NCBI GenBank assembly: GCA_021810045.1
Contig: JAJZJR010000013.1
Location: 1 to 52,500 of the forward strand
DNA length: 52,500 bases
DNA from: Thermoplasmata archaeon
GTDB taxonomy: Archaea; Thermoplasmatota; Thermoplasmata; Thermoplasmatales; Thermoplasmataceae
Direction of reading: 5' to 3'
In this document: one piece after another, positions 1 to 332 of the stretch
Position numbering within the stretch: position 1 is the stretch's first letter
How the letters are laid out: every line of letters begins with the position of its first letter
Translations under genes and position numbers: made by a program
The notes under the pieces: model-generated
Seen by the model: only the letters and a program-made list of their open reading frames with translations
Databases searched by the model: none
Told to the model about the DNA's origin: nothing

Positions 1-243
1 CGAACAACAAACGATCTGAGGTTGGTTCAAATCCTGTTGGGGCATGCCCGCATTGAGACCACTACAATCTATGAACATCTTTCTACAAAAGAAGCAGCGG
101 AGAAAGGAATCCCCGCTGTCGAGAAACTTTTTCGTGGGGATGAAGAAATGATTGATTGGGTACGAATTCCCGCGGGAGCCGTTCAGAATAAGTGGGGACA
201 CTGGGATTTGAACCCAGATCTGCGGGTCTCTTCCGGTTCATAG
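1..243 (+). CDS. Tyrosine recombinase/integrase, C-terminal fragment (5' end outside window)
   Basis: The reading frame is already open at base 1 and ends at the TAG at 241-243. The visible residues carry the end of the catalytic domain: the LLGHA histidine motif followed by the nucleophile region IYEHLS, with Tyr as the presumed DNA-cleaving residue. This is the normal order in phage- and XerC-type tyrosine recombinases, which cut and rejoin DNA through a 3'-phosphotyrosine. After the motif the frame continues through a charged tail (about residues 40-57 of the visible part), and the last 17 codons are simply the complement of the tRNA-Trp 3' exon and part of its intron. An integrase abutting a tRNA 3' end is the usual picture of an element integrated in a tRNA gene, so this is probably an integrated-element or remnant integrase. 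Whether the N-terminal catalytic residues are intact cannot be seen. Confidence 0.8.
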   Translation, partial: RTTNDLRLVQILLGHARIETTTIYEHLSTKEAAEKGIPAVEKLFRGDEEMIDWVRIPAGAVQNKWGHWDLNPDLRVSSGS

Positions 244-332
244 TTCCAGTCACTCATCATTTAATCAGGTGACCCGTAGTTAATCATAACCTGACTGGAG
301 CCCATCAGGATGCCTGATTACCCCATGTCCCC
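193..332 (-). tRNA. tRNA-Trp (CCA) with a 67-nt intron in the anticodon loop
   Basis: On the minus strand the 5' end GGGGACA (332-326) pairs with TGTCCCC (194-200), with discriminator A at 193. The T arm is CTGGG-TTCAAAT-CCCAG. The D arm contains the AATCAGGCAT loop. The anticodon loop reads CTCCAG, giving anticodon CCA. Exon 1 is 332-295 (38 nt), the intron 294-228, and exon 2 227-193 (35 nt). The lower anticodon-stem pair is weak (A-C and a T-G pair below three G-C pairs). The CCA end is not encoded. Archaeal tRNA-Trp commonly carries an intron after position 37, and EndA, encoded at 21190-22134, would remove it. Exact splice positions are inferred from tRNA numbering and could move by a base. 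Confidence 0.85.
228..294 (-). ncRNA. tRNA-Trp intron acting as a box C/D methylation guide RNA
   Basis: Read 5' to 3' on the minus strand the intron has ATGATTA (287-281, box C), CTGA (268-265, box D'), ATGATGA (260-254, box C') and ATGA (241-238, a degenerate box D). The stretch before D' is complementary to GACCCG of the 3' exon, and the fifth base upstream of D' faces nucleotide 39. The stretch before D (TGACTGGA) is complementary to TCCAG plus the first three intron bases, and the fifth base upstream of D faces C34. Established knowledge: in Haloferax and other Euryarchaeota the pre-tRNA-Trp intron guides 2'-O-methylation of positions 34 and 39. Both guides obey the N+5 rule here, which also supports the tRNA identity. 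Confidence 0.8.

Follow-up and report, generated by a model that had tools for sequence, protein, structure and literature searches.

The 67-nt intron of the tRNA-Trp gene in the window, by which the whole 52,500-nucleotide stretch of DNA analyzed here is meant, is very probably a dual-guide box C/D RNA within pre-tRNA-Trp, with C34 and C39 as its targets, and 2′-O-methylation is predicted at both. Directly observed are the anatomy of the intron, the register of its guides, conservation and co-variation among homologues, and the presence of the protein genes. The locus is an ordinary, well-supported Thermoplasmatota member of the archaeal tRNA-Trp intronic box C/D guides. Introns of this kind are known from Haloferax, Pyrococcus and "at least 29 archaea", and methylation is expected to precede splicing (PMC2584109); they are also treated in PMC4090602, PMC7994747 and PMC11408192. 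For Haloferax, methylation directed by the intron has been documented (PMC2584109, PMC4090602 and PMC11408192), and deletion of the intron there led to the loss of both methyl groups with no growth defect (PMC11408192). The first-pass annotation had noted that the Haloferax intron guides methylation at positions 34 and 39, which agrees with PMC2584109. The present analysis broadens the range of this self-guiding tRNA intron to a whole phylum for which modification data are few, and natural co-variation shows where selection acts: on the C stem, on one pair between boxes C and D, and on the guide duplexes at the two splice junctions.

The tRNA-Trp gene and its intron

The source genome (2.26 Mb in 81 contigs) belongs to Thermoplasmatota, and the window is an entire contig. 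The pre-tRNA-Trp(CCA) gene, 140 nt with one intron, occupies positions 193..332 of the minus strand, as do all of its parts described below. It was identified from its sequence and from an end-to-end match (model positions 1-141) to a covariance model, with a score of 157 bits; this model was built from the window sequence itself together with relatives. The gene was not reported in the window by ARAGORN with bacterial settings or by Rfam at the gathering score, a shortcoming of the settings used, and the gene call therefore rests on the covariance model and the alignment. In same-genus genomes the pre-tRNA-Trp is 99% identical to the window copy.

Exon 1 (295..332) comprises tRNA nucleotides 1-37 and shows the expected pairing in the acceptor, D arm and anticodon arm. 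Exon 2 (193..227) runs from nucleotide 38 to the discriminator, with pairing in the T arm and acceptor. The acceptor stem is GGGGACA/TGTCCCC, the T arm CTGGG-TTCAAAT-CCCAG, and the anticodon loop CU-CCA-G. The anticodon CCA lies at 296..298, so that C34, the first predicted methylation target, is position 298, opposite the N+5 base of box D. The second predicted target, C39, is position 226. Between nucleotides 37 and 38 lies the intron (228..294), which holds the box C/D guide RNA and has a bulge-helix-bulge (BHB) motif at both ends.

Box elements and guide duplexes

The intron contains, in order, box C, a 12-nt spacer, box D′, a short loop, box C′, a second 12-nt spacer and box D. Conservation was assessed among 111 distinct near relatives and 93 parsed phylum-wide homologues, and the co-variation of duplexes and stems among 38 diverse homologues. 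Box D′ (CUGA, 265..268) and box C′ (AUGAUGA, 254..260) show the highest conservation within the intron: CUGA is present in 111/111 near relatives and 89/93 homologues phylum-wide, and UGAUGA in 111/111 and 81/93, respectively. Box C (AUGAUUA, 281..287) is conserved and carries U at position 6, where the canonical sequence is RUGAUGA; box D (238..241) is AUGA. A C stem is formed by GGU (289..291) pairing with ACC (235..237), and all three of its pairs have changed on both sides among the homologues. The first-pass annotation had placed boxes C, D′, C′ and D in the 67-nt intron and had named a lack of box conservation in related species as grounds for doubt; all the boxes are present in the right register, and they are conserved both in near relatives and across the phylum. 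It was also right that box D is non-canonical, but it had missed that box C is non-canonical as well (UGAUUA, not UGAUGA).

The D guide, UGACUGGA (245..252), forms 8 contiguous base pairs from U33 to intron nucleotide 3, with its N+5 base opposite C34, and this duplex is present in the minimum-free-energy fold of the whole precursor. The core of the D′ guide, CGGGUC (271..276), pairs with the last intron nucleotide, A38, C39, C40, C41 and G42, and places its N+5 base opposite C39. Earlier reading of the letters had already proposed that both antisense stretches pair with their own pre-tRNA in this register, and the proposal stands: when the intron was subjected to 20,000 dinucleotide shuffles, matches no shorter than the observed duplexes arose 111 times for C34, 113 times for C39, and only twice for both together. 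The same reading had one duplex spanning the 5′ splice junction. This is true of the D duplex, but both duplexes cross a junction, the D′ duplex spanning the 3′ one.

The guide:target pairs are retained in the homologues while neighboring bases change. In the 38 diverse homologues, 99.7% of the cells of the D duplex are paired and the pair between N+5 and C34 is invariant, while one pair switches from UA to CG in 15 of the 38. This is the pair between intron nucleotide 2 and guide base u82 (UA 21, CG 15, UG 2). Intron nucleotide 3 and guide base u81 swap AU for GC in 7 homologues, and in one relative (L240, genome G137) a change of tRNA nucleotide 37 from G to A is matched by C to U in the guide. 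On the D′ side, the last intron nucleotide and guide position 3 form CG in 43, UA in 37 and AU in 3 of the 93 homologues.

Because both duplexes cross splice junctions and their intron-side bases tend to co-vary, these sequence comparisons suggest that methylation would take place before splicing, which is the already accepted model and not new. The 6-bp D′ pairing had been considered decisive for the precursor over the spliced tRNA as the target, and this argument has been weakened: in the spliced tRNA, G37 would also pair, counting wobble, in approximately as many homologues, and therefore only the co-variation, not the percentage of pairing, favors the precursor.

The identity of position 39 had been set apart from the Haloferax case as C rather than U. 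C39 is indeed present, but it is not peculiar to this genome: A38-C39 was found in 93/93 parsed Thermoplasmatota homologues, a count in which a mild bias is possible since the search model was derived from C39 sequences. Archaeal tRNA-Trp is moreover listed with "Cm34 and Um39 (or Cm39)" in a review (PMC6313347), and a C39 target is therefore not new.

The terminal C/D motif

In the C/D k-turn, position 6 of box C and position 1 of box D form a Watson-Crick pair that adjoins the U.U and tandem G.A pairs. The canonical k-turn sequence RUGAUGA/CUGA is absent from the terminal motif in the window, which reads AUGAUUA/AUGA: each box deviates at one position and the two deviations compensate each other, so that the C6:D1 pair is U-A instead of G-C. 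Among the 93 phylum-wide homologues this pair is U-A in 61, G-C in 18, C-G in 5 and A-U in 4. It is thus Watson-Crick in 88/93, with all four types represented, and the remaining 5 are U.C mismatches, which count against the preferred explanation. The tandem GA of boxes C and D, as needed for the sheared G.A pairs of the k-turn, is intact in 93/93. The AUGA of the window had been described as a degenerate D box, and here the first-pass annotation does not hold, as AUGA is one half of a compensated pair; a decaying D box was likewise rejected by the co-variation count.

Within the order, AUGA always occurs with a box C of UGAUUA, and CUGA always with UGAUGA. Two types of C6:D1 pair occur within each of the families f17, f21 and f39. 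Taken together, the C stem and C6:D1 are 95.5% paired in the 38 diverse homologues, all four pairs have changed on both sides, and their co-variation score was reached by 0/500 shuffles. At least 16 changes of C6:D1 were counted on a rough tree built from the same sequences with the two positions masked. A test confined to well-supported branches was underpowered, with just 4 independent pairs (about 3.8 in the same direction, 0 in the opposite, p 0.125), and significance is therefore not claimed from it. In one genus (L018 and L023), a box C of AUGUUUA occurs with a box D of AAGA; one A of the tandem GA is lost, and the terminal motif is possibly decaying.

The same genome contains a candidate for an ordinary trans-acting C/D sRNA (L292, G000:C11:68684-68716, plus strand), judged from its arrangement of UGAUGA, 12 nt, CUGA, UGAUGA, 12 nt and CUGA. 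It shares the 12-nt guides and the box order with the intron but, unlike the intron, has canonical terminal UGAUGA/CUGA boxes and a CCAC/GTGG stem. The variant therefore belongs to the tRNA-Trp intron and not to the genome.

The internal C′/D′ motif is usually regarded as looser than the terminal C/D motif. Across the phylum, it is likely that the terminal motif has no fixed sequence and a freely exchangeable C6:D1 pair, while the internal motif stays canonical; the C stem and the BHB helix would hold the k-turn, and the boxes would need only its shape. If so, C/D RNAs with an exchangeable terminal pair escape consensus-based searches, and a practical rule would be to look for the pair and not for CUGA alone. 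Relative to the known introns as described in PMC2584109, PMC4090602, PMC7994747 and PMC11408192, the co-varying C6:D1 pair is a modest new detail.

Splicing fold and proposed mechanism

The BHB motif has 3-nt bulges, AG/U and AG/A, and a 4-nt central helix of C32-G, U33-A, C34xA and C35-G. The C34xA mismatch makes this a relaxed BHB and counts against the preferred explanation. Intron nucleotide 2 co-varies with its partner in the guide duplex and also with u99, its partner in the BHB, as would be expected of an RNA that has to adopt each of the two folds. Since the last intron nucleotide sits in a BHB bulge, splicing alone does not account for its link with D′ guide position 3.

Fibrillarin, Nop5, L7Ae and a tRNA splicing endonuclease are all encoded by the same genome, and the endonuclease domain (PF01974, 21862-22065, plus strand, in a 317-aa frame) shares a contig with the intron that it would cut. 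By analogy with the Haloferax and Pyrococcus work, RNP assembly, methylation and action in trans are expected here as well. The intron, either excised and probably circular or still in the precursor, would bind L7Ae at the terminal C/D k-turn and at the internal C′/D′ motif, and Nop5 and fibrillarin would then be recruited to the intron RNA. We infer that L7Ae binding is preserved by the U-A pair, which in the terminal k-turn of this lineage takes the place of G-C at C6:D1. The D guide would pair over the 5′ splice junction and position C34 for 2′-O-methylation, and the D′ guide would do the same for C39 over the 3′ splice junction. The precursor would switch between the guide fold and the BHB fold that is cut by the splicing endonuclease.

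Alternative explanations

It is improbable that C34 alone is guided, the D′ guide being of insufficient length to function and nucleotide 39 remaining unmethylated. The D′ duplex has only 6 bp, and across relatives its pairs upstream of nucleotide 41 (positions 42 and 43) are often mismatched; both points count against the dual-guide explanation. However, conservation within the intron is highest in boxes D′ and C′, N+5 of D′ falls on C39 throughout the homologues, the third position of the guide co-varies with the last intron nucleotide, and Haloferax modifies both positions (PMC2584109). An explanation of the co-variation between intron nucleotide 2 and the D guide by the inner helix of the BHB only, and not by the guide duplex, is more doubtful still. 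Intron nucleotide 2 does co-vary with u99 (UA 21, CG 15), but u82 lies outside the BHB and yet changes in step with it, and intron nucleotide 3 swaps together with u81.

Least credible is the proposal that the intron is retained for splicing only and that its box C/D motif is a relic that lost L7Ae binding as boxes C and D drifted. Both boxes are off consensus, and the AUGUUUA/AAGA combination of L018 and L023 would be in keeping with such a loss. The drift is compensatory, however, with C6:D1 Watson-Crick in nearly all homologues and the tandem GA unbroken in the 93 parsed; the guide:target pairs are kept while their flanks change, and all of the core proteins are encoded.

Homologues and related systems

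Sequence scans for homologues covered the phylum Thermoplasmatota. BLAST detected a homologue of the precursor or intron in 79/101 relatives, and in 42/47 of the good genomes. The covariance model matched in 278/284 Thermoplasmatota genomes that are at least 90% complete, although weak matches may be other tRNAs. A pattern search that placed no constraint on box C or on the first base of box D returned matches that were all from Thermoplasmatota/Euryarchaeota, including Ferroplasma acidarmanus, Thermoplasma sp., Aciduliprofundum/DHVE2 and Poseidoniia. The introns of Ferroplasma acidarmanus (L097), Thermoplasma sp. FL (L116), DHVE2/Aciduliprofundum (L092) and I-plasma (L141) are direct homologues, alike in their boxes and in C39. 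The DHVE2 introns differ in having canonical UGAUGA/CUGA and no 3-bp C stem, while most of the others share UGAUUA/AUGA.

The pre-tRNA-Trp intron of Haloferax volcanii (103 nt; Cm34 and Um39) resembles that of the window in its 37/38 site, its boxes C, D′, C′ and D, and its target positions, and intron bases take part in both duplexes in each case (PMC2584109). The window intron differs in its length of 67 nt, in C instead of U at target 39, and in its terminal boxes UGAUUA/AUGA. In Pyrococcus, sR50 is the pre-tRNA-Trp intron and, as in the window, a guide of its own tRNA (PMC7994747); this is another lineage, and the cases on record carry U at nucleotide 39 (PMC6313347).

In two relatives (L255 in G180 and L262 in G176), tRNA-Trp is interrupted twice: by the box C/D intron and by another intron in its T loop, near 59/60. 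A further relative carries two tRNA-Trp copies about 1.7 kb apart, of which the second (L232, G328:C10:116351-116492) has changes in the T arm and in the guide bases and is perhaps insertion-derived.

Surroundings of the gene

A TATA-like sequence, CTATTTATATCCC, precedes the gene at 437-450 on the minus strand. It is approximately 105-118 nt away from the 5′ end of the tRNA, and an 80-nt stretch lies in the interval. A C-terminal fragment of a tyrosine recombinase (22-243, plus strand; weak PF00589 match, E 0.0097) has a frame that enters the 3′ half of tRNA-Trp in antisense orientation, and recombinase genes occupy the equivalent place in related genomes (L003, L004, L005 and L023). An integration site seems to lie at the 3′ end of tRNA-Trp. 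Partial repeats of this 3′ end occur 3.4 kb from tRNA-Trp in G013 (L073) and 8.3 kb away in G017 (L074, with 21 identical bases); the distal end of an inserted element would be expected to carry such repeats.
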